Source: Rhodoferax sp. (GTDB taxonomy: Bacteria; Pseudomonadota; Gammaproteobacteria; Burkholderiales; Burkholderiaceae_C). Taken from it: a stretch of DNA of 64,000 nucleotides. A program made the position numbers and the translations under genes. The notes beneath the pieces are model-generated. The model ran no database searches. It was not told the origin of the DNA and was given only the letters and a program-made list of their open reading frames with translations. Shown here piece after piece: positions 4,543 through 57,198 of the stretch (its first letter is position 1; each line of letters begins with the position of its first letter). The stretch spans positions 1-64,000 of the forward strand of contig JAUSNJ010000182.1 of NCBI GenBank assembly GCA_030645355.1. Direction: 5' to 3'.

Positions 4543-5535
4543 TCAGCCGCAGCGCGTAAAGGGATTCCAGCTCAACTGGTGAAGAATGTTCCAAACGCTG
4601 ACCTTTCGGTTGGCCTGAATTGATGCGCGTTTTCTCCAGAAGAGTGGGATGCCCACAATGGCGTCTCGTTTGGCGCGCATGGCCACTGCACCCTGTCCGC
4701 GCAATACGAGCCAAACCAACGTTGCGAGGTTGAGTAGGACATGCAATGGCAAGAGGGTCCAGAACAGGACGCCGGGCATATTCTTCACGAATACCCAGAC
4801 GAGATTGCGATGACCGTGGTAAATCTGAAAATCACTGTGCTTCCCGACAAAGGCGGAACCCAGGTGCCTGATATGTGCGGTGGGAACATACATGGCACGA
4901 TACCCTGCAAGGCGCAGTCGAAAACCAAGATCAACATCCTCCACGTAGAGAAAGAAATCTTCATCCAGGGGGCCAATCTCCCGCAGCGCCGAAGTGCGAT
5001 ACAGCGCGGCGGCTGCACAGGGCGCAAATATTTCCTTCTCCTGGTCATGGATTGGAGAATCGGGGCAACCATGCGCGCTGCGCCACGGCAGCCCGCTGAC
5101 GTGGTAGATGTCTCCCACTCCATCAAGCTGCTGCTGGTCAGAGTCACTGAACATGCGCGACCCAAAAGCGGCATATTCAGGGTGATGCATTCCGCTCGCG
5201 ACGAGGTTCTTCAGCCAGTCCTCAGTGGGAAATGCGTCAGGATTCAACAATGCAACCCAGGGGCCAAGCATGCACTCCTGCATCGCATGGTTCACTCCCC
5301 CTGCAAAGCCTAAATTCCTATCCAACTGAAGCACGATCACTTTGGGGTAATCCTTGCGAATCGACGTCACCGAGTCGTCGACGCTGTTGTTGTCCACAAC
5401 GACAGTCACAAAGTCCTGAAAGCATTGCCTTTCCAACGCAGCCAAGCACTGGCAGATCATCTCACCGCCGTTGTAGTTGACGATAACAACTGTCACCAAG
5501 GGGGGGGTAACAAGTGATGTTTCTTGGGTGGTCAT
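4543..5535 (-). CDS. Glycosyltransferase family 2 (rhamnosyltransferase-like)
   Basis: A 330-residue inverting GT2 enzyme. The nucleotide-binding strand VTVVIVNYNGG is at residues 14-24 and VVVDNNS near residue 48. The catalytic and metal region follows (NPDAFP), then the DVDLGFRLRLAGY segment typical of WbbL/RfbF-like rhamnosyltransferases. The last 60 residues hold a hydrophobic stretch that may peripherally anchor the protein. Its start overlaps the stop of the upstream methyltransferase gene (ATGA, 4 bases), so the three minus-strand genes from 9629 to 4543 look like one operon. Rhamnose as donor is only an analogy. Confidence 0.88.
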   Translation of the reverse strand: MTTQETSLVTPPLVTVVIVNYNGGEMICQCLAALERQCFQDFVTVVVDNNSVDDSVTSIRKDYPKVIVLQLDRNLGFAGGVNHAMQECMLGPWVALLNPDAFPTEDWLKNLVASGMHHPEYAAFGSRMFSDSDQQQLDGVGDIYHVSGLPWRSAHGCPDSPIHDQEKEIFAPCAAAALYRTSALREIGPLDEDFFLYVEDVDLGFRLRLAGYRAMYVPTAHIRHLGSAFVGKHSDFQIYHGHRNLVWVFVKNMPGVLFWTLLPLHVLLNLATLVWLVLRGQGAVAMRAKRDAIVGIPLFWRKRASIQANRKVSVWNILHQLSWNPFTRCG

Positions 5536-6668
5536 TGAAATGGCCTGACCATATGGAATCGATACCCCGCAGCCATTTCTGTGATTGACTCTGGGGGCAG
5601 GTCGATCAAATTCTTGTTCTGTGTCAGGTGCTTATAGAAGGTGTCCACGCTCATATTCTTGAGTCTTGCCGCCTCAGAAGGAGATACAGTTTCAAAAATC
5701 CTTCTGAACATCCACTCCAGTGTGAACTCTGGTCGCTGGTGGGCCTCTGCTGCTACATATTCGAGATCCAGGCCTGCCCTGCCCGCCACCTGCTTCAGGC
5801 CGAACGGCGTAAAGTTGAAGTAGTGGTGCGGGAGTAGGTGAAGGGGTTGTAAGAACGGCGCGTCGCCAAGAATTTTTCCTCCCGGCTTGAGCAGGCGATG
5901 GCCTTCTTGGAGCATCGCGATCGGGTCCGGCACGTGTTCTAAAACGCTATCCAGAATGATCACATCGAATGTTTCGCCATCGAATGGAAGGTGGGCTTCG
6001 CCGGGCACCGTAATAAGGGTCGCAGTGGGGGTCAAATAGATATCCTGTGTGACCAAGTTGTCAAACACCCTGTCGCGGATGCCGCAGCCGATGTCGAGCG
6101 CAATGACTCCGGGCTGGTGGAGTGCTTCCAGTGCGTCGGGGTGGTAATTGCCTATCCGCGTATTGTCAAAGGGCAAAGGGGCCTCTGTCGCACAAATCAC
6201 GCCATTGCCTAGGCCGGGAGAGTGGCCGGCCTTTTCGCTGCCGGCTTTCGATGGAGGTTCGCGAAACAGACTTTGCGTCAAAGCTACGGCCTTGGGTGTG
6301 GCAAAGGGCAGAGGCATTAGATTGTTTGATGGCAGGCCGACTCTCAGGGTGGCTATCGCGGCACCTTTGTGCAAGAGGGTCGCTGTCACGGACCGTGTTG
6401 TTTCGCCGGTTTGAAAGATCACATGTAGTGTGAACCCAAATGCAAGCGCAGATCCCACACCGAGAGCTTTGCATACGTCCGGACGATCCGTGAACAAGCA
6501 GTTGGCTTGGCCAACGGTTGTCTCTACCTCAATGGCATCTCTCTCCAGGTCCGCAATCCATCCCTCCACGCAAACCCAGTTTGAAGCGCGCAGTTGTGCC
6601 CGATCAATGTGCAGTCTGACTTGTAAGGCCGACTGGATCTCAATTTTTTCCCTGGTAATTTCAATCAT
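5532..6668 (-). CDS. Class I SAM-dependent methyltransferase with N-terminal accessory domain
   Basis: A 378-residue protein in two parts. Residues 1-120 form a beta-rich domain (VEGWIADLERDAIEVE, later FGFTLHV) resembling accessory domains attached to surface-glycan enzymes. Residues 180-330 form a methyltransferase-11-type core with motif I ALDIGCGIRDRVF, then FDVIILDSVLEHVPDP and LLKPGGKIL. The long C-terminus (HYFNFTPFGL onwards) is common to methyltransferases in O-antigen clusters. The gene lies 21 bases after the large glycosyltransferase gene and overlaps the following GT2 gene by 4 bases. Methylation of a sugar in the glycan is the most likely role. Confidence 0.82.
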   Translation of the reverse strand: MIEITREKIEIQSALQVRLHIDRAQLRASNWVCVEGWIADLERDAIEVETTVGQANCLFTDRPDVCKALGVGSALAFGFTLHVIFQTGETTRSVTATLLHKGAAIATLRVGLPSNNLMPLPFATPKAVALTQSLFREPPSKAGSEKAGHSPGLGNGVICATEAPLPFDNTRIGNYHPDALEALHQPGVIALDIGCGIRDRVFDNLVTQDIYLTPTATLITVPGEAHLPFDGETFDVIILDSVLEHVPDPIAMLQEGHRLLKPGGKILGDAPFLQPLHLLPHHYFNFTPFGLKQVAGRAGLDLEYVAAEAHQRPEFTLEWMFRRIFETVSPSEAARLKNMSVDTFYKHLTQNKNLIDLPPESITEMAAGYRFHMVRPFQ

Positions 6669-6689
6669 CAGGACAGTTCGAGAATGCTT

Positions 6690-9629
6690 TCATTGAACAA
6701 CTACTTGGGCACCCGCAGGGTCGCGTTGCCAGATTCTGTTGGCGATATCCAGGTTGAAGACAACCGGCTGCTTCACTTCCCATTGCGTGCTTTGAATTGT
6801 CAAGTTTGGGTTGTAATAGGGGTCGCACTGATCAAGCGCTTTGCGCCACTTCTTGACGAAGTAAACAGAATCTTCCGGATGCGGATCTACGCGGCTTTTG
6901 CCCCGGGTGTAAGACTCGTGGTGAACCAGAACCGCGCGAGCGCAATACACAATGCGGTAACCCGCTTCGCGGGTCTTCAGGCACAAATCCACATCGCCAA
7001 AACCCACAGACAGGTTCTCTTCATACCCTCCGACTTTCTCGAAAACATCCCGACGCATCAAGGCGCAAGCCGCGGTGACGGCAGACATCTCGTGGTTGGC
7101 GATCAACGTTCCGTGGTAGCCCGGATGCAAACTGCCGTCTGGTCGGACATCATCCATGAACTTCCCATAGTGCTCGGCAACTCCGTACATGCCTACACAA
7201 ACGCCCGCGTGTTGGATCATTTTGCGGTCTGGGTACAGCAGCTTTGCGCCAACAATGCCAACATCCGGCATTTGACCCAATTCCATCATTCTTTCCAGCC
7301 AATCCGCATCCATCGCTTCGATATCGTTATTGCAGAACAGGTAGTGTGAAAATTGGCCTCGCATGTGGGCAATCGCCCAATTGTTAATGGCGGAAAAGTT
7401 AAAGACACCCTCATACCGCAGCACCTGATGGTGCGACTTCAACTGTTCAAAATAGGCCACCGATGCCGGGTCGTCCGATGCGTGGTCAACAACGATAATC
7501 TCGTAGGGAACCCGCTTGACGGTTCGGACAATACTCTCCACACACTGGCGAACCAGTTCACCGTGATTCTTGGTGGGAATGATGATTGCAACCCTCTGTC
7601 CGGCTTGAAGCGCGTACCGTACGTCAAAATAGTTGAATTGCAAACCGTTGTGTACTTCTCCCGATTCACCGCAGCGCGCAAGATGGCGGCCTAACACCTC
7701 GCGCGAGGTGTCCATGACTGTTTTCTTGCGCAAATGGCCTGAGGACAACTTGCGCTGACGCCATAGGTAGAGGATTTCCGGGATGTGAACAATCTTTCGC
7801 GCGTTTTCAGCCACGCGCAAAACCAGGTCGTAGTCTTGAGAAATGGACAGGGTCGTGTCCAACCCGCCAATTTTTCTGAGCAACTCTGTTCTGAATGCAA
7901 CCAGATGCACAATATAGGGACACGCCCGCAGGTATTCCAATGAAAACGCAGGCCGGTGGGTGTGGTTGATTACCTCTTCACCGTCCTCCGAGAGGGTGGC
8001 CTCATCCGAGTAGATCATGTCTGGATCGGAATTCTGAATAGCCTCAGCGACTCTGAACAACGCTTGTGGTTCCAAGACATCGTCGTGGTCGAGGAGAACA
8101 ACGAACGAGCCTCTTGCCATCGCCAGCGCATGGTTGGTCGCCGCAGCCACGCCGGCATTTTTCTCCAGAACCAACAATCGCACACGGGGGTTGTTCGCAG
8201 CTGTTTCCTCCAGAATACGGCGAACGTGCAAAAGTGGGGATGCGTCATCCACTACGCACAGCTCCCAGTTTGGGTATAGCTGGTCCGCAACGGATTCAAG
8301 CGTGCGACGCAATACGTTCTCTGGTGTGTTGAATGTTGGCATTAACACCGAAATCAATGGCGGGTTTGCCATGCCCTGGATATGGGTCTGAATTTGGACT
8401 GCTACCTCGGGCGAAAAGGATTTCTTGTATTGATTGATCCATACGTCGTTGTAAGTCACTTCGTAGGGGAGTTGTTTCAGAATAGCTTTGACACTGTCCG
8501 TCCCGCCTTTTTGCCATGCGTATTTCAAACGCAATGCTGTTGCAGGTATTTTCCCCGGGTCTTGCGCCAGCGGGCTCAGGTAAAACATCACGCGCCGTGC
8601 CCGCAAGGCCAAGGCGGTTGCCGCAGCCCTGACACTGCGCAGAGGCGCAGTCAATCGCCAGCTGGTCGATGCAAAAATGGTCTGGATCAATGTGCCAAGC
8701 TCATGCAGCTGGGCCTCTCGTTCTGCTATTTTTTGCTGCAGTTCAATATTCTGCTTTTCCAATTCCGCCGAAGCCATCTCCAGCTCTGCAAATCGAAGAT
8801 TGCTTTCCAAGAGGTTCTGATCCAGACTGGAACACAGCCGTACCGAAGTTTCCAGCTTTGCTTCCAATTTCGTAATTTTTGGGTCTTCAATATGTGAGGC
8901 AAATGTCAGGAGTCTATTGATTTCGGTACCCGTCCAAACATGCCGCCATTTGTCAAAAATCCTGTCGCGCGCTGTCTGCACTGCATCTTCTCCCACAGAT
9001 GGTCCAGCACCAGAACCTCCATTGCTCCGGTAACCGGCGCTCACGCGATCGACATGCAAAAATGGGCCAAGGCGGGCCGCTTGCAGCCAAAAATCCCAAT
9101 CCTCGTAGATGGTCAGGGACTCATCGAATCTGCAGCCGCATTGCGCAAGATCTTTCTGAAACAGAACGGCGTGAATGGGAATGAAGTTCCCATGGAGCAG
9201 CTTGATGGGATCGAATGCTTCATTGATGATGGAAAATTCGGCGGATTCACGCGCCGCGGTGAACCTGACGCCGGCATAGGCGACGCGCGTACCCTTGTGT
9301 TCTTCCAACGCACCAACCAGTCTTTCAATGTGATCAGGGTCGAGCCAATCATCGTCATCCAGGAACAATGCGTATTTGCCCCGTGCGCTGTCCAGCCCCA
9401 GATTGGCGGCGCTGCTGCGGTGTAGCGGTGAATCCGAACGCACCGTGCGCAAAGGGAACTCCCCACAGCGTTCGCCGTACCGGCGATGGCCATCTCCGAG
9501 CGCATTGACAAGAACGACTTCTATGTTCGTGTATGTCTGGCTGGCTATGGAATTCAGCGCTTCTTGCAGCGTGCTTCGATCCATGCTGCGCGTAATAACG
9601 CTGACCAGACTCGTTGGGGTGTTGTCCAA
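6690..9629 (-). CDS. Large protein with three GT2 glycosyltransferase domains and a central coiled coil
   Basis: A 979-residue protein. Residues 1-230 form one GT2 domain (SVITRSMDR, then FLDDDDWLDPDH). Residues about 255-305 are a Leu/Glu/Gln-rich coiled coil. Residues about 420-640 form a second GT2 domain (ISVLMPTFNTP, then LLDHDDVLEP), and residues about 660-920 a third (VAIIIPTKNHGE, NNDIEAM, and DVDLCLKTREAGY). Multi-domain GT2 proteins of this kind build several linkages of a repeat unit, or measure chain length through the coiled coil, in ABC-exported O-antigens. It is the first gene of the minus-strand operon. Its start is 142 bases from gspE, which diverges from it. Confidence 0.87.
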   Translation of the reverse strand: MDNTPTSLVSVITRSMDRSTLQEALNSIASQTYTNIEVVLVNALGDGHRRYGERCGEFPLRTVRSDSPLHRSSAANLGLDSARGKYALFLDDDDWLDPDHIERLVGALEEHKGTRVAYAGVRFTAARESAEFSIINEAFDPIKLLHGNFIPIHAVLFQKDLAQCGCRFDESLTIYEDWDFWLQAARLGPFLHVDRVSAGYRSNGGSGAGPSVGEDAVQTARDRIFDKWRHVWTGTEINRLLTFASHIEDPKITKLEAKLETSVRLCSSLDQNLLESNLRFAELEMASAELEKQNIELQQKIAEREAQLHELGTLIQTIFASTSWRLTAPLRSVRAAATALALRARRVMFYLSPLAQDPGKIPATALRLKYAWQKGGTDSVKAILKQLPYEVTYNDVWINQYKKSFSPEVAVQIQTHIQGMANPPLISVLMPTFNTPENVLRRTLESVADQLYPNWELCVVDDASPLLHVRRILEETAANNPRVRLLVLEKNAGVAAATNHALAMARGSFVVLLDHDDVLEPQALFRVAEAIQNSDPDMIYSDEATLSEDGEEVINHTHRPAFSLEYLRACPYIVHLVAFRTELLRKIGGLDTTLSISQDYDLVLRVAENARKIVHIPEILYLWRQRKLSSGHLRKKTVMDTSREVLGRHLARCGESGEVHNGLQFNYFDVRYALQAGQRVAIIIPTKNHGELVRQCVESIVRTVKRVPYEIIVVDHASDDPASVAYFEQLKSHHQVLRYEGVFNFSAINNWAIAHMRGQFSHYLFCNNDIEAMDADWLERMMELGQMPDVGIVGAKLLYPDRKMIQHAGVCVGMYGVAEHYGKFMDDVRPDGSLHPGYHGTLIANHEMSAVTAACALMRRDVFEKVGGYEENLSVGFGDVDLCLKTREAGYRIVYCARAVLVHHESYTRGKSRVDPHPEDSVYFVKKWRKALDQCDPYYNPNLTIQSTQWEVKQPVVFNLDIANRIWQRDPAGAQVVVQ

Positions 9630-51306: not shown

Positions 51307-52239
51307 ATGGCACACATCGACCCCACCCCACCTGTTTCCGCAGACGCCGCCCGCCCCACGGCCACGCTGACGGTGTTGTTTGCCGATGTCGTGGGCAGCA
51401 CCCGGCTGTACGACGGCTTTGGCGACACCATCGCCAAACAGATGATCGACGAATGCCTGGCGGTCCTGAGCGGGGTGGTACAGCAGTATGGCGGGCGGGT
51501 CATCAAGACCATTGGTGACGAGATCATGTGCGTTTTGCCCAGCGCCGATAGTGGCTGCCTGGCGGCCACCGATATGCACCACAAGATCATGGCCCTGCCC
51601 ATGGTCTCCAAGGTCAAGCGCAGCGTGCGCATTGGTTTTCATTTCGGCCCGGTGATTGAAGAGAACAACGACGTCTTCGGCGATACCGTCAACATGGCGG
51701 CCCGCATGGCTGGCCTGGCCAAGGGCATGCAGATCATCACGACCGGCGCCACCGTGGCCTGCATGTCACCGATGCTGCAACTTTCCACCCGCAGCATCGC
51801 CGCGTTGTCGGTCAAGGGCAAGGGCGACGAGGTCAATGTCAGCGAGGTCATCTGGCAAGGTGGTGAAGAGTTGACGATGTCCACTGCATCCATCAGCGCC
51901 ATCGCCACCAAGGCGGTCACACTGGAGCTGGTTCACCAGGGGCGCGCCTGGACCCTGGGCCATGCCTATGCGTCCGTGGTCCTGGGCCGCGACGCGCAGT
52001 GCGACGTGGTCATCGCTGACCGCAGTGCCTCGCGCCAGCATGCGCGTATTGAATGCCGACGCGACAAATTCTTTCTGGTCGATCAGAGCACCAATGGAAC
52101 CTTTGTGGCCTTTGCCCATGAAGCCGAAGTGGAGTTGCGCCGCGAAGAGATCATGCTGCGCGGTACCGGCCGCATCGCGTTTGGCCACACCGTGGACTTG
52201 GCCGGCGCCGAGTTCGTGGCGTTCAGCGTGCGCGAATAA
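51307..52239 (+). CDS. Class III nucleotidyl cyclase with C-terminal FHA domain
   Basis: A 310-residue soluble protein. Residues 15-180 form a class III adenylate/guanylate cyclase: LFADVVGSTRLYDGFGD and IKTIGDEIMCVLP carry the two metal aspartates, and FGDTVNMAARMAGLAKG carries the transition-state Asn and Arg, so it should be active. Residues about 205-305 are an FHA domain (VVLGRDAQCDVVIADRSAS with R, S and N positions, then SRQHARIE and DQSTNGTFV), which binds phosphothreonine. I chose ATG 51307; ATG 51268 adds 13 residues. The neighbouring convergent gene encodes a Ser/Thr kinase, so the FHA domain probably reads its phosphorylation. Confidence 0.88.
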   Translation: MAHIDPTPPVSADAARPTATLTVLFADVVGSTRLYDGFGDTIAKQMIDECLAVLSGVVQQYGGRVIKTIGDEIMCVLPSADSGCLAATDMHHKIMALPMVSKVKRSVRIGFHFGPVIEENNDVFGDTVNMAARMAGLAKGMQIITTGATVACMSPMLQLSTRSIAALSVKGKGDEVNVSEVIWQGGEELTMSTASISAIATKAVTLELVHQGRAWTLGHAYASVVLGRDAQCDVVIADRSASRQHARIECRRDKFFLVDQSTNGTFVAFAHEAEVELRREEIMLRGTGRIAFGHTVDLAGAEFVAFSVRE

Positions 52240-52258: not shown

Positions 52259-54661
52259 TCAGGTCGTCTTGGCCAGCAACTTGCCGCGTGCACCCGGTGC
52301 ACTTTGCAGGCCGGCCGGTGGCAGGGCGTCGAGCTTGCCGCGCACCGCCATGTCGGCGCAGGCTGCCGCAAAACTCACATTGACATCCGCACCGCTGGAC
52401 CCCGCCAGCGCAAAGCACGCCTGACCGAGTTTGGTGTTGAGCGGCTTGAGCACACCCTCATTGATCAGGTCACTGGCATTGCCGTCGGCCAGTTGCAGCT
52501 GGTACTTGCCGGAGTCGTTGGCCGCCTGGGCGTCTAGCACCTGGCGAAAGCCCCGCAGCTCACGCAGCAGCAGTTTGGCGCTTTGCGCATCGGGCAAACC
52601 CGCCACATTCAGATTGATCTTCTGGGCGCTGAAGTTGAAGTGTTCGAGAAAGAAGTTCCGGGAGAACTCGTCGCCGACCAGTTTGCCGATTTCGGCCAGG
52701 GCCAGGTCTTCGGAGGCCCAGCTCTTGCCGGTGGGGTTGACGGTGTTGAGGTAGACCTCTTCGCCGCTGGCCTTGTCGATGGCCTTCACGGTCCAGGAAG
52801 TGAGCGCGGTCTTGGTGATGGTCAGGCCCGATGCGGGCAACCGGGCGGACAGGACCTTGACCTTGACCTCGCCCTCGATCTGAAAGTCGGATGGCTGAAC
52901 CTTGGCGCCGGCCTTGACATCACCATCGGCGGACCAGACCCTAAAACCAAAGGACTTGATGCGTTCCTTGACCACGTTCTCGGCCACCATGGAGCGCTCG
53001 GCCGGCAGCGCTTGCGTGGTGTCGGCGTTGCGAATCGCCATCTGGATGGACACCTTGGGGTCGCCGTTGTTGCGGATGAATTCGATGCGTTCGTCCTTGG
53101 ACAGCTGGTTCAGCGACTTCTGCACATCGCGTACCTTGACCACGGCGCGGGTTTCGGTTTCCAGCAGGCCGTCCTTGCCGGTGGCGGCTGCGCCCTCCTG
53201 GATCACGGTCTTGATGAAGGCGCCGGGCTGTGACAACAGCTTGCGGTCCAGCACCGCATAGTTCTTGTTCAGCGAGTCTTTTTCGACGTACAGCGCCACG
53301 GCCTTTTCGACCAACTGGCGCATGGCATCGGCACGGGATTCGGTTTGCGCGGCGTTGGCGTCGCCCTTGAAGCGGGCATCCTTGGGGTCCACCAGGCCCA
53401 GGGCGCTGATGACCATGGTGCCGGGCTCCAGCGCGGGATCAGTGGATGTTGCGGCGACCGGCGCAGCCGGGGCTACGGGTGTTGGAGCCGCGCTACTGGC
53501 CGCGACAGAAGTCGTTGCCTGAGTCAACGCCGCGCTATTGTCTTGGGTACCCCGGGAGAAGTAGTAGCTGCCCGCGCCCAGAATGGCGACGCCGGTCAGC
53601 ACAACAGCCACCAGTGCGCCATTGGATTTGTGCTGGGCATCACCGACGGGCGTGGCGGTGGCGGCACGGGCGGGTGCAGCCGCAGCGGTAGGCGCAATAG
53701 GGGCTGCCTTGGGTGCAACCGGTGCTATCGGCGGCTTGCTGAGTTCGGTGCGATCCGCGTCCACGGCCGCAGCAGCGCCCATGGCTGGCGCCGCACCCAG
53801 AGTCGTTTTGATGGCCTGCGCGAATTCGTCAGCGCTCTGGTAGCGTTCGTCCGGATTTTTTGCCATGGCTTTTTTGACCACCGCATCAAATGCCGCGGGC
53901 AGCGCCACGTTCAGCAGCGAGGGCGCCAGCGGCTCCTCGTGCAGCACCTTGTACATGATGGTCGTGGAATTGCCGGTAAACGGCTTCTCGCCGGTCAGGA
54001 ACTGGTACAGGATGACGCCGCAGGAAAAAATGTCGCTGCGCCCGTCCACGGGCTGCCCCATGAACTGCTCGGGTGACATGTAGGCGGGTGTGCCCATGAC
54101 GGTGCCGACCTGGGTCAGCTCGGATTTCTCGACCCGCGCAATGCCAAAGTCTGCGACCTTGACCTTGCCATCGGCCAGCACAATCAGATTGGCGGGCTTG
54201 ATGTCGCGGTGGACGACACCGTTGGCGTGCGCATGGCCCAGCGCATCCAGCACCTCAACCATCAGGCGCTCCACGTCCTTGATCGCAAAGCGCTCGTTGG
54301 CCTCGAAAAAATCACGCAGTTCGCGGCCCTTGACAAATTCCATGGCGATATAGGCCACGCGCTGGCGAGCCTGGGCATCAGCGCCTGCCACCATGGTGTG
54401 GTCTTCGTCGGCAATCTCTTCACCGTAGTCATAGACCGCCACGATGCCGGGGTGGTTCAGCCGGCCTGCGGCCTGCGCCTCGCGCTTGAAGCGTGCCAGC
54501 ACCTGGGCGGCCTCTTCGCCCTTGAGCTGCGCCGGCAAGATGGTCTTGATGGCCACCGTGCGCTCGATGGCTGGATCGAATCCCTCGTACACCACGCCCA
54601 TGGCGCCTTTGCCGAGTTCACGGCGGATCAGGTATTTACCGAGTCGGGTGAAGGTCGTCAT
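52259..54661 (-). CDS. Transmembrane Ser/Thr protein kinase with periplasmic FlgT/LPP20-like domain
   Basis: An 800-residue kinase. Residues 10-275 are a complete Hanks-type domain: GKGAMGVVYEG glycine loop, AIK lysine, HRDIKPANL catalytic loop, DFGIAR, GTPAYMSPEQ. An Ala/Pro linker follows, then one TM helix near 352-372 (VAVVLTGVAILGAGSYYFS). The periplasmic part has ADAMRQLVEKAVALYVEKDS and LLSQPGAFIKTV, which resemble the FlgT/LPP20 family, then further beta-rich domains to the end. Most bacterial kinases use PASTA or other sensors, so this is unusual. The stop is 20 bases from the cyclase-FHA stop (convergent), and a CsgG-like gene precedes it by 17 bases. Confidence 0.88.
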   Translation of the reverse strand: MTTFTRLGKYLIRRELGKGAMGVVYEGFDPAIERTVAIKTILPAQLKGEEAAQVLARFKREAQAAGRLNHPGIVAVYDYGEEIADEDHTMVAGADAQARQRVAYIAMEFVKGRELRDFFEANERFAIKDVERLMVEVLDALGHAHANGVVHRDIKPANLIVLADGKVKVADFGIARVEKSELTQVGTVMGTPAYMSPEQFMGQPVDGRSDIFSCGVILYQFLTGEKPFTGNSTTIMYKVLHEEPLAPSLLNVALPAAFDAVVKKAMAKNPDERYQSADEFAQAIKTTLGAAPAMGAAAAVDADRTELSKPPIAPVAPKAAPIAPTAAAAPARAATATPVGDAQHKSNGALVAVVLTGVAILGAGSYYFSRGTQDNSAALTQATTSVAASSAAPTPVAPAAPVAATSTDPALEPGTMVISALGLVDPKDARFKGDANAAQTESRADAMRQLVEKAVALYVEKDSLNKNYAVLDRKLLSQPGAFIKTVIQEGAAATGKDGLLETETRAVVKVRDVQKSLNQLSKDERIEFIRNNGDPKVSIQMAIRNADTTQALPAERSMVAENVVKERIKSFGFRVWSADGDVKAGAKVQPSDFQIEGEVKVKVLSARLPASGLTITKTALTSWTVKAIDKASGEEVYLNTVNPTGKSWASEDLALAEIGKLVGDEFSRNFFLEHFNFSAQKINLNVAGLPDAQSAKLLLRELRGFRQVLDAQAANDSGKYQLQLADGNASDLINEGVLKPLNTKLGQACFALAGSSGADVNVSFAAACADMAVRGKLDALPPAGLQSAPGARGKLLAKTT

Positions 54662-54678
54662 GGGGCGGGGGGTCCGGC

Positions 54679-55500
54679 TTATTTGTATTTGGAATCAATG
54701 TCCCAGACCAGCGTCTGCACCAGGCGCTGCACCATGGTGTCCAGGCCCACGCCACCCTTGGCGGAATCGGATACACCCATGACGCTGGTGGAGGTGGCGC
54801 CGACTTCCATTTTCAAATCCTTGTAGCCTTGGGCCACCTGTTCGGTGGTGTTGGCGTCCATGATCTTGTAGCGCATGCCGATCAGCCAGACGCCGGTGGA
54901 GTCACCGGTCTGCACGGAACCCGCCACCGTGCTGGCGGCCGAACCGGCCATGCTGCCGCCACCAAAGATGGACAACAGCCCACCGACGGCGCGGCCGTCA
55001 AAGCCCTTCTTGTTCTCGGCAATCTGCTCGGCCTTGAGGATGTCGAACTTCAGAATCCACTTGGTGGTCTTGAGCTTGCCCATCTGCATGGTCTTGCGCG
55101 CGGCGTTCGGGTCACCCAGGTTGTAGGCCAGCGAGATTTCATTCACCAGAGGCCCCAGGTTGGTCCGCTCCAGCACCGGGAAGTTGGCATTGGACAGTTC
55201 CAGCTCGGCAAAATCGGCAATATTGTTGGGTAAAAAGCGCTGCGTGAAGTTGGCGTTGTTGCTCTTGATCTCGCCGGGGATGACGATCAGCGCCGGGCCG
55301 CGTTTGTTCTTGTTGGTGTACTCCACCTCTTTGTAGGCCGCCGCATCGGCCGCCGCATTGGCCTTGTCCGATGTGGAGCTGCCGGCGGTGGGTGACGGGT
55401 TGCCAAAGCTGGGTTGGGCCTGAACAGTGCTGCCCACGGCGGCCAGCACCAGCAATGTGGATGCCGTAATACCTTTAAACATGTTGAATCCTTGGCTCAT
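54679..55500 (-). CDS. CsgG/HfaB-like periplasmic protein
   Basis: A 273-residue exported protein. A Sec signal peptide covers about the first 28 residues (TASTLLVLAAVGSTVQA). There is no lipobox Cys, unlike CsgG. Residues 65-260 follow the CsgG pattern: ALIVIPGEIKSNN, FPVLERTNLGPLVNEISLAY, WILKFDILKAEQI, GVWLIGMRYKIMDANTTEQV, and a C-terminal LVQRL-like VQRLVQTLVWDID. CsgG forms outer-membrane peptide channels; without a lipid anchor this may be a soluble relative. ATG 55500 (GGGAG upstream) is used, with ATG 55482 as an alternative. It lies between the kinase gene and another exported protein in one operon. Confidence 0.78.
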   Translation of the reverse strand: MSQGFNMFKGITASTLLVLAAVGSTVQAQPSFGNPSPTAGSSTSDKANAAADAAAYKEVEYTNKNKRGPALIVIPGEIKSNNANFTQRFLPNNIADFAELELSNANFPVLERTNLGPLVNEISLAYNLGDPNAARKTMQMGKLKTTKWILKFDILKAEQIAENKKGFDGRAVGGLLSIFGGGSMAGSAASTVAGSVQTGDSTGVWLIGMRYKIMDANTTEQVAQGYKDLKMEVGATSTSVMGVSDSAKGGVGLDTMVQRLVQTLVWDIDSKYK

Positions 55501-55521
55501 TGTCTCGCTCCCATTAAAAAT

Positions 55522-56169
55522 TTACGAACCGCCGACGCGGCAATAGTCACTGTACAACTGCGCGACCACTTCGTCTGCCTTTTCGTTGATCAGGGTCAGG
55601 GCCATGCCGGAGGTATCGACCCCTGCATAGCTGGCATTTTCCGCGCTGGTTTGTGACAGGATCTTGCCATGGGCATCGGTCAGCGTGAAGGCCATGCGAA
55701 TGGACACCTGGTTGACGCGCACGATGGTGTTGTACCCCGTCTGGCTGGAGATGAGCCCGCGCAGGATGTATTGGGCCGCGAGCCGCTTGGATGCGCCCAG
55801 CGCAGCATCGGGGTCGTTCTTGAAATAGGCGTCGATCTCGGCCTGCGCGACCTGGGCCGTGATTTGTGCCTGGGTCGTGGTCTTGAGCCCCAGGCGCTGC
55901 AGGCGCGCGTTGAGTGCATCGAAGTGGCCGGTATAGCGGGATTGCGCAGTCTGCAGGTAGCCATCGCGGCTCTCGCCGATCAGCACCATGATCTTCTGGT
56001 TCTTGATCTTGGCCCGGCAGGGGCTGGCCAGCAGCGCCTGCACTTTGGCCTGCTGTTCGGCCTCTTGCGCCTTCTCCGCGTTGTCTTCGTTGGAGAACTT
56101 GAAACCCTGGGCCAGCGCCCCGCCGGACAAGGCTGCTGCGGCGAGCAAGACGATCAGGGCGTGACGCAT
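55522..56169 (-). CDS. Exported protein of unknown function in the kinase operon
   Basis: A 215-residue exported protein with a Sec signal peptide (MRHALIVLLAAAALSGGALA, cleavage near 20). A Glu/Gln/Ala-rich helix follows (FSNEDNAEKAQEAEQQAKVQ). The body has KIMVLIGESRDGYLQ, LNARLQRLGLKTTTQAQI, AAQYILRGLISSQTGYN, VSIRMAFTLTDAHGKIL and EVVAQLYSDYC, a fold resembling the FlgT-middle/CsgG-type alpha+beta domains, but I cannot assign it. It is the first gene of the kinase operon, 21 bases before the CsgG-like gene, and probably works in the same periplasmic complex. Confidence 0.75.
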   Translation of the reverse strand: MRHALIVLLAAAALSGGALAQGFKFSNEDNAEKAQEAEQQAKVQALLASPCRAKIKNQKIMVLIGESRDGYLQTAQSRYTGHFDALNARLQRLGLKTTTQAQITAQVAQAEIDAYFKNDPDAALGASKRLAAQYILRGLISSQTGYNTIVRVNQVSIRMAFTLTDAHGKILSQTSAENASYAGVDTSGMALTLINEKADEVVAQLYSDYCRVGGS

Positions 56170-56800: not shown

Positions 56801-57198
56801 GTTGCTTTTGTGTCCCCACTCTCCCCCAACCCCGCTCGCCCCGCCGGGCGAGAGGGGAGCTTTAACAGCCGATTTGGTGTCAGCGCGCCGGCTACGGAAT
56901 TACTGGCGAGGCGTTGCCACCGTGTCTGTTCACCACGGCTTCTCGGGTAGCGGTCGTAGAGGCTTCGTGGCGCACTTGCCGGGAGCTGGCTGGCAGGCGC
57001 AGCCGCCAGCTTTGGCCATGCACGGACAGAGCCGTTTACTACGACCGTAACTTCAGAAACCCGTGCAATCCACAACGTACCGCAACCTTCCCCCAGTAAT
57101 TCCGTAGCCGGCGCGACAAAGTCAAATCGGCTGTTGAGCTCCCCTTTCGCCCGGCGGGGCGAGAGGGGTTGGGGGAGAGTGGGGGTACACAAGTAACT
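56801..57198. mobile_element. Foldback/MITE-like element of about 400 bp between the Lrp-type regulator and putA
   Basis: The left arm (56801 to about 56960) and right arm (about 57038 to 57198) are inverted copies. Shared blocks include CCCCACTCTCCCCCAACCCC, the GCCCCGCCGGGCGA/GGGGAGCT region, CAACAGCCGATTTG-type sequence, CGCGCCGGCTACGGAATTAC and CGGTCGTAG. The centre holds GCTGGC...GCCAGC at 56985-57010, so almost the whole sequence can fold into one long hairpin. It encodes no convincing protein. It fills most of the 524-base gap between the divergent genes. No clear target-site duplication was seen. Confidence 0.75.

Follow-up and report, generated by a model that had tools for sequence, protein, structure and literature searches.

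To our knowledge, neither the signal nor the output is known for many of the membrane-bound Ser/Thr kinases found in Gram-negative bacteria, and the locus described here, on the 64,000-nucleotide stretch of a Rhodoferax sp. contig that was analysed (the window), raises the question of whether both can be read from the genes around such a kinase. Its gene set suggests both ends of a kinase pathway, namely partners in the periplasm whose relatives can be recognised, and a cyclase that would read phosphothreonine. We lean towards the view that genes C, B and A, together with the convergent gene D, form a single conserved transmembrane signalling module, in which the state of the envelope would be passed to kinase A and from there to the FHA-cyclase D.

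From the layout of the locus, it is clear that three open frames follow one another on the minus strand, C (55522..56169, 215 aa), B (54679..55500, 273 aa) and A (52259..54661, 800 aa), with gaps of 21 bp (C-B) and 17 bp (B-A). Gene D (51307..52239, plus strand, 310 aa) is convergent with A across a gap of 19 bp. A promoter scan of the region found none (0.9 expected), and the seven terminator-like sites, versus 4.6 expected, are uninformative.

The kinase part of A (residues 1-300; 53762..54661, minus strand) holds a complete kinase domain (Pfam Pkinase, PF00069, residues 12-275, E 2.7e-49) with the catalytic motifs VAIK at 36, HRDIKPAN at 151 and DFG at 171, and A is by this domain and its VAxK, HRD and DFG motifs a Hanks-type Ser/Thr kinase. 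Among relatives with frames of at least 750 aa, VAxK and HRDxKPxN are each retained in 56/56 and DFG in 55/56. A single membrane helix is predicted at about residues 348-368 (53558..53620, minus strand; hydropathy peak 346-368), which would leave the kinase inside and a C-terminal ectodomain of 396 aa (residues 405-800; 52262..53449, minus strand) on the other side. The kinase domain is of the PknB type (NCBIfam); the NCBIfam PASTA-kinase model NF033483, whose cut-off is 450 bits, gave a score of 328.6 and covered residues 8-369 only, and Pfam found no PASTA domain in A, which lies outside the PASTA-kinase family. A PHROGs search gave mainly generic kinase matches. PADLOC likened A to PD-T4-6 kinases and D to PycC; a defence role is unsupported, since these matches have no cut-offs and would suit many kinases and cyclases.

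The ectodomain, in which Cys749 and Cys768 are invariant, probably begins with a FlgT_N-like part, followed by two further parts. Single-sequence Pfam searches gave no FlgT_N (PF16548) match in A or in the 46 aligned ectodomains (alignment A1, the window and 45 of 56 relatives, redundancy-filtered at 85%); the remote likeness is supported by profiles, as hhalign of A1 against the FlgT_N family set (5 of 6 loci) gave 52% (E 1.4e-4). The ectodomain profile also retrieved five exported proteins, with FlgT_N matches at 2.1e-6 in two, at 1.2e-3 and 0.35 in two others and none in the last. The match between A1 and a further alignment, A5 (98%, E 3.9e-14), is partly circular, because A1 had itself retrieved five of the six A5 rows, L138 alone stemming from the FlgT_N search. 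The preliminary description of this DNA had proposed a three-gene operon with a complete Ser/Thr kinase, whose periplasmic region is unlike PASTA sensors and in parts resembles the FlgT/LPP20 family. The operon, the kinase and the departure from PASTA sensors are confirmed by the above data, and the FlgT half of the likeness is supported by profiles, for the first part of the ectodomain; the LPP20 half is not supported, since hhalign against the LPP20 (PF02169) set (14 of 19, with two short ones kept apart) gave at most 2%. LPP20 is also absent from the 20 Pfam families matched by any of the 46 ectodomains, and in two remote relatives it reached E 0.05 and 0.6. Those 20 families form no coherent picture, each occurring in at most 6/46 (best ToxA_N, 1.3e-4, in 3), and in the PDB profile search the ectodomain hit nothing but pieces of fimbrial proteins (E 0.003 and 0.065; single domains 25-50) and of catalase, judged to be chance.

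The products of B and C are both predicted to be secreted, each with a signal peptide as judged by eye and no lipobox in the window's copy. When the two sequences were searched directly against Pfam, NCBIfam and the PDB, nothing came out above cut-off, and alignments were needed (A2 for B, the window and 53 of 91; A3 for C, the window and 55 of 56 chosen from 74, excluding the shorter piece L056; 85% redundancy filter). B of the window did not match CsgG (PF03783) up to E 5, while 37 of 54 B relatives did so at E ≤1 (best 2.4e-5); the profile-profile comparison (CsgG set 10 of 15) gave 92% (E 5.6e-7), supporting B as a probable remote relative of CsgG, and a PDB profile search with B had no match. 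For C, the LpoB profile (PF13036) reached 17.2 bits, below its cut-off of 22.3, in the window's protein and matched 44 of 56 relatives at E ≤1 (best 8.3e-5); here the profile-profile comparison (LpoB set 11 of 14) gave 84% (E 7.8e-6), which argues for a remote kinship with LpoB, which activates a peptidoglycan synthase. C carries an invariant cysteine pair, C51 and C210, and its PDB profile search reached 5t10 (E 0.17) and 5t11 (E 0.37), both listed as uncharacterized, which we take to be PelC. PMC12141448 names neither 5t10 nor 5t11.

A second B copy elsewhere in the window's genome (L052) has a lipobox-like site, and so has the second copy in 8/8 loci with two B genes. The lipobox pattern also matched B rows L075, L094 and L122 and C rows L062, L072 and L075; these six were set aside by eye, the Cys lying within the signal stretch. 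The CsgG-like protein lacking a lipobox of the preliminary description is supported, and its other exported protein is likewise predicted to be exported and is remotely LpoB-like; the similar fold claimed for the pair is not borne out by direct comparison of C with B (hhalign about 1%), although the families that the two distantly resemble are of a similar kind. That reading is partly supported overall and incomplete, having missed this presumably lipidated second B copy and the conserved FHA-cyclase gene D.

D joins a class III adenylate cyclase to an FHA domain (PF00498, E 1.5e-14) at its C-terminus. Its alignment A4 comprises the window and 30 of 32 chosen from 44 (85% redundancy filter), leaving out L063, a match without FHA whose A has no ectodomain, and a second, 27% cyclase of L101. 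As expected of a class III enzyme (PF00211), D27, K67, D71, D126, N129 and R133 are invariant in all 31 rows; we take D27 and D71 to be the metal aspartates, K67 and D126 to be adenine-selecting, and N129 and R133 to serve the transition state. The linker between cyclase and FHA domain carries a (D/E)-L-T motif in 31/31 rows, and its Thr190 (51874..51876, plus strand) is a candidate phosphosite by position only. This threonine is not specific to A-associated proteins, since 16 of 18 D-like proteins encoded away from A also align a threonine there. The FHA motifs GR, SxxH and NG are likewise invariant (31/31), in agreement with the rule for phosphothreonine-binding FHA domains in the available part of PMC1262709.

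C-B-A and D are a conserved neighbour set in many betaproteobacteria. Across the same 300 genomes of the host's order, the A ectodomain occurs in 15 and B and C in 17 each; all 15, from 7 families and 10 genera, fall within the 17 and carry both B and C. The three-gene order, whose conservation the preliminary description had left to be checked, is kept in 59/61 named loci, with ectodomain identities among relatives going down to about 47%. Within the host's genus, the system was found in 6/49 genomes, among them one with a fragmentary copy and one whose copy is interrupted by stops. In 15/15 A-bearing genomes of the 300, D is no more than 1.4 kb away from A; it is convergent beside A at 43 of the 61 named loci, within 280 bp at 39 of these. 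At 12/61 it is absent despite at least 1.5 kb of room, so that D is not the output everywhere. These 12 genomes, some of them incomplete bins, include four with a D of 50-56% elsewhere; the other 8/12 are without a close D, six having only a 31-34% FHA-cyclase and two none (E 1e-30). D-like proteins occur in 65/300 genomes, 50 of these without A, and among 20 fetched loci of D-like genes not beside A, an A-type kinase lies within 2 kb in six; in five of these at most 250 bp separate the two genes, or the called frames overlap. Over 40 loci, the pairwise distances of the five parts (kinase part, ectodomain, B, C, D) are correlated (r 0.81-0.92; 0/500 permutations reached any of the ten r values) and over a 28-locus subset defined by a narrower motif that leaves out 12/40 (r 0.83-0.94), correlations that compare the system's own parts and can stem from common descent alone.

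Apart from the four genes themselves, no neighbour cluster exceeds 16/77 loci, and the FHA-cyclase is the sole widely conserved neighbour. The neighbour clusters examined contain no exported substrate, outer-membrane partner or cell-wall gene, and their scanned representatives, drawn from the commoner clusters, include no flagellar family and no secretion or T6SS gene. Outside the system, B adjoins a CHASE2-adenylate cyclase (L122) or a kinase that carries a cyclic-nucleotide-binding domain (L132). In sister loci without A, a C-like domain is fused to a secreted caspase domain and followed by B, and Caenimonas sp. SL110 (L094) has C-B with no A within 10 kb. C-B-A is retained and D missing in a group of records from Ramlibacter, Caenimonas and Comamonadaceae; Caenimonas koreensis (L084), for instance, has C-B-A and no close D, while the complete set occurs in Methyloversatilis universalis EHg5 (L111).

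The gene content, the co-conservation, the intact kinase, the signature residues of cyclase and FHA domain and the export and membrane signals can be read from the sequence, and on them we build the following inferred mechanism. Soluble periplasmic B and C would register the state of the envelope, through whatever signal or ligand they may receive, and would act by binding on the FlgT-like ectodomain of A. The kinase would then phosphorylate cytoplasmic threonines on A itself and most likely also on D, its likeliest output; the FHA domain of D would bind a phosphothreonine of A or, in cis, the phosphorylated invariant threonine of D's own linker, and this binding would switch cAMP synthesis by the cyclase domain.

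The same genes could be read differently. B and C, whose distant relatives serve in assembly and export, may form an envelope assembly or export device, along the lines of CsgG, PelC and LpoB, with A as a quality-control kinase reporting to several substrates and D as one frequent client or a co-inherited neighbour. The lipobox-like second B copies (8/8 two-B loci and the window's genome), the caspase-fused loci without A, L094 with no A within 10 kb, and the absence of D from the Ramlibacter group would all suit such a device; however, the neighbour clusters examined offer it no exported substrate or outer-membrane partner, the operon's own B has no lipobox, and D stays near A in all 15 A-bearing genomes among the 300 of the order. 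We consider this reading rather unlikely. We regard as improbable a cell-wall or glycan sensor, made of the ectodomain, B and C and comparable to PASTA kinases, with cell-wall enzymes as output and no role for a cyclic nucleotide: C is indeed nearest to LpoB and the kinase domain is of the PknB type, but A has no PASTA domain, no cell-wall gene was seen in the examined clusters, and the single widely conserved neighbour is an FHA-cyclase. That unrelated genes were clustered by chance in one lineage would agree with the patchy occurrence (15/300 in the order, 6/49 in the genus), yet it is contradicted by the C-B-A order in 59/61 loci, by the spread over 7 families and by ectodomain identities as low as about 47%, and a lack of D-A adjacency outside close relatives was not seen; we give this explanation almost no credence.

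Taken together, the envelope-to-cyclase module remains our preferred reading and, if true, would be a bacterial receptor kinase with direct control of cAMP; our literature search found no described system of this kind and no bacterial receptor kinase directly controlling cAMP. More tentatively, the CsgG-like and LpoB-like pair may be a reusable sensing module with differing outputs, the present one belonging to an undescribed envelope-to-cAMP family in which a kinase gates an FHA-cyclase via a linker phosphothreonine. The sister loci, which connect the same periplasmic proteins with secreted caspase-like proteases, would then be variants in which the LpoB-like part carries the protease and the cyclic-nucleotide-binding kinase may be present or absent.

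Among known systems, the TagQRST-PpkA-Fha1 pathway of T6SS is similar in outline: in the available part of PMC5532429, the outer-membrane and periplasmic proteins TagQ and TagR act on the kinase PpkA, which phosphorylates an FHA protein, and the pathway reacts to envelope perturbation. The same succession of envelope proteins, kinase and FHA protein is proposed here from the genes alone; in contrast to that pathway, D carries its FHA domain on an adenylate cyclase, the kinase has a FlgT-like ectodomain, B and C resemble CsgG and LpoB, respectively, and no secretion gene is found among the neighbour clusters examined. Bdellovibrio DgcB, an FHA-gated diguanylate cyclase activated by a phosphopeptide from its own N-terminal region (as far as the available part of PMC6733907 describes it), also unites FHA and nucleotide cyclase in one protein; whereas DgcB has a GGDEF domain and makes cyclic-di-GMP, D is a class III adenylate cyclase with its FHA domain at the C-terminus, and is encoded beside a membrane kinase. 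The PknB/Stk1 kinases of the PASTA type (NF033483) have the same layout as A, in which the kinase domain is followed by a single membrane helix and then by a C-terminal domain outside, but A lacks PASTA domains and falls under the family cut-off. The remaining likenesses are remote ones between profiles, of B to CsgG (PF03783), of C to LpoB (PF13036) and of the ectodomain start to FlgT_N (PF16548). CsgG is an oligomeric outer-membrane lipoprotein (PMC3173608, available part), whereas B and C of the window, lacking a lipobox, are presumably not lipidated; and unlike FlgT itself, the FlgT-like part is here fused to a kinase.

The four genes lie close together in the window. On the minus strand, C (55522-56169, 215 aa), an LpoB-like protein, is followed after 21 bp by the CsgG-like B (54679-55500, 273 aa) and, after a further 17 bp, by A (52259-54661, 800 aa); D (51307-52239, plus strand, 310 aa) converges on A, leaving 19 bp between them. 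The kinase encoded by A is of Ser/Thr type and complete: its Pkinase match has E 2.7e-49, the motifs VAIK, HRDIKPAN and DFG stand at 36, 151 and 171, and a membrane helix is placed near 348-368. Its ectodomain, roughly 396 aa long, fits no model of Pfam or NCBIfam. D joins an N-terminal class III cyclase part (PF00211, E 8.2e-19) to a C-terminal FHA domain (PF00498, E 1.5e-14). Also in the window, an Lrp-type regulator and a putA-like gene flank nested inverted repeats at 56801-57197, one pair having 61-nt arms with 90% complementarity and the next 54-nt arms with 80%; they may represent either a miniature mobile element or a large hairpin.

The likeness of B to CsgG, proposed in the preliminary description, is supported as a remote one by profile-profile comparison (92%, E 5.6e-7), though the window's own B alone has no CsgG match in Pfam. 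CsgG is matched (E ≤1) by 37 of 54 B rows (best 2.4e-5) and LpoB (E ≤1) by 44 of 56 C rows (best 8.3e-5); the window's own C falls below the LpoB cut-off, and the C profile matches LpoB (84%, E 7.8e-6). The proposal that C has a fold similar to that of B was not supported, as B versus C stayed below 10%, like the remaining profile pairs tested, including B or C versus the ectodomain. The suggested FlgT likeness of the ectodomain received some support for its first third against FlgT_N proteins (52%, E 1.4e-4) and was weaker for the whole (26%). The ectodomain profile also recovers five exported proteins in three genomes (G462, G590 and G517), with FlgT_N scores of 2.1e-6 in two, 1.2e-3 in one, 0.35 in one and no match in one. 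Together with a protein from locus L138, which came independently via FlgT_N, they match the ectodomain over 281 columns (98%, E 3.9e-14), a partly circular result in that five of the six rows had been picked by the same ectodomain profile. Given this match, the entire ectodomain, beyond its start, is probably like free-standing FlgT_N-type exported proteins. Genome G498 has a free-standing relative of the ectodomain itself, 485 aa long, with no A-type kinase within the surrounding 12 kb; this secreted protein (L257:9728-11936) lies next to a convergent gene whose start looks LpoB/TolB-like by eye. Invariant cysteines at 749 and 768 of the ectodomain and at 51 and 210 of C suggest disulfides.

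The order was sampled evenly with 300 genomes. The A ectodomain turned up in 15 of them, from 7 families and 10 genera, and B and C in 17 each; every genome with A also carries B and C. The two extra genomes, G020 and G187, have no A; they carry B, and a C-like domain sits at the end of a longer protein. Of the 15, 13 have A and B on a shared contig. G052 and G137 have them on separate contigs, the kinase half adjoining B at a contig end, and in G097 the gene order is altered. Searching named genomes with B of the window, using patterns from a single sequence that are biased toward close relatives, gave 108 relatives, mostly in metagenome bins. The best 80 were kept; the named and unnamed sets overlap and are not independent. 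The ectodomain is present at 61 of these 80 loci and the order C-B-A at 59 of the 61, the exceptions being L080 (a rearranged contig, also that of G097) and L110 (where the contig begins at B). The co-conservation of the three genes, named earlier as a check, is supported in both sets. The other 19 loci comprise 10 truncated by breaks inside the kinase part, one shortened A (L063) and eight with B and no A (L071, L094, L095, L097, L107, L122, L125 and L132); at L125 the contig stops past a second B, and L132 has a different kinase. By record title, the carriers include Rhodoferax, Ramlibacter, Caenimonas, Azospira, Methyloversatilis, Sulfuritalea, Rhodocyclaceae and others. At L063:6425-8301, the shortened A (no ectodomain match) faces a D hit without an FHA match, as if the intervening stretch had been lost.

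When the open frames up to 6 kb from B were clustered for 77 loci, A was represented at 68, B at 77, C at 65 and D at 43, a small number of different kinases and cyclases (as at L132 and L122) being included in the A and D clusters. The next-largest cluster reaches 16 of 77, and representatives of the smaller ones are either everyday genes, among them sigma-54, HPr kinase, RecA, RecX, MTHFR, transporters and dehydrogenases, or unmatched frames. A convergent D lies within 4.5 kb of A at 43 of the 61 A loci (from the best 80 of 108), and within 280 bp at 39 of these 43; it was not found at 12 loci that offer 1.5 kb or more of sequence for it, and at 6 the contig ends too early to judge. Four of these 12 genomes (L091, L098, L103 and L131) have a 50-56% D relative elsewhere, six only a 31-34% relative and two none at E 1e-30. 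Ramlibacter accounts for four of the eight genomes that lack a close D, Caenimonas for one and Comamonadaceae records for two; the last is a metagenome bin under the possibly wrong title Bordetella parapertussis. Every one of the 15 genomes with A in the order sample has D no more than 1.4 kb from A. The A-D link is strong, yet not obligatory, and D is not restricted to the system, since D-like proteins (E ≤1e-30) occur in 65 of the 300 genomes.

At D-like genes away from A, an A-type kinase lies within 2 kb at 6 of 20 fetched loci, and in 5 of the 6 the called genes overlap or are no more than 250 bp apart; Pfam confirms 4, and L226 has a weaker kinase match adjoining the D-like gene (E 8.8e-8). 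Kinases and FHA-cyclases are paired repeatedly, and A-B-C-D is the version in which the ectodomain is large and two secreted proteins join in. One of these pairs belongs to the window's own genome, which so contains a second, divergent kinase (637 aa)/FHA-adenylate cyclase pair with a 135 bp gap (L232, G000:C55:1000-14500, at 4782-7717).

Six cyclase residues, D27, D71, K67, D126, N129 and R133, do not vary across the 31 D proteins aligned; we take D27 and D71 to bind metal, K67 and D126 adenine, and N129 and R133 the transition state. Equally invariant are G227 R228, S242, H245 and N263 G264, corresponding to the GR, SxxH and NG of the FHA motif rule in PMC1262709. The interdomain stretch is variable save for an acidic-Leu-Thr motif in all 31 rows, and by its position alone the Thr is a candidate phosphosite. 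A Thr also aligns there in 16 of 18 D-like proteins not beside A (L231 has Ser, L232 an insertion), making it a property of the wider FHA-cyclase family.

B and C also occur in other settings. Eight loci carry two B genes, the second with a lipobox-like site in every case. The second B of the window's genome, on another contig (L052:8949-9815, G000:C9), is 80% identical and has such a site; neither A nor C was found next to it. A lipidated copy is not general, because only G000 and G020 have two B matches among the 300 genomes. Where present, it could tether soluble proteins at the membrane, by analogy with TagQ, which retains TagR at a membrane (PMC5532429). Four loci (L095:7334-11695, L132:7486-12172, L038:7804-11060 and L048:6888-9274) encode a larger secreted protein that has the C-like part at its end, and B genes follow. 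A caspase domain was found in both proteins tested (L095, E 2.9e-34; L132, E 1.9e-34), and those of L038 and L048 read similarly. L095 has another caspase-domain gene immediately upstream, and L132 has two B genes downstream, then a kinase that includes a cyclic-nucleotide-binding domain (E 2.1e-16). At L122:9983-12664, a CHASE2-adenylate cyclase directly follows B, with no match for A, C or FHA at the locus. At a few loci, the C-B pair, or B alone, is tied to kinases and cyclic nucleotides independently of A.

The A-B-C-D system is accessory and losable. The ectodomain occurs in 6 of 49 genomes of the window's genus, as a fragment in G647 and interrupted by stops in G664, and is absent from all eight genomes of the family's other genera in the order sample. 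Five of 249 phylum genomes match its profile: the window's own, G498 (close, no kinase) and three with distant proteins. In the one-contig G664, the ectodomain copy (G664:C1:2553933-2555102) has several stops, and the A gene is decaying there.

An envelope-to-cytoplasm relay is the best-supported reading of A-B-C-D. At the level of sequence, it is backed by the parts themselves, by export or membrane signals, by active-site and binding motifs that remain intact, and by co-inheritance over a long time. Every link between the four proteins is one of gene order and co-occurrence, many loci being metagenome bins. Pairwise distance correlations among the parts are 0.81-0.92 at 40 loci, values that common descent alone could raise. 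B and C would lie outside, A would span the membrane and D would act inside; contact among the proteins, phosphorylation, an FHA switch and cAMP are the steps that we infer. Going by titles and the opening lines of abstracts, no paper on the combination appeared among the matches listed from open-licence literature, which is weak evidence, and the kinase-architecture survey PMC1262709 does not mention CsgG, curli or LPP20. The nearest working model for the relay is the T6SS pathway TagQRST-PpkA-Fha1 (PMC5532429), although its composition differs from that of A-B-C-D, and the nearest enzyme switch to the FHA-cyclase D is the FHA-gated DgcB (PMC6733907).
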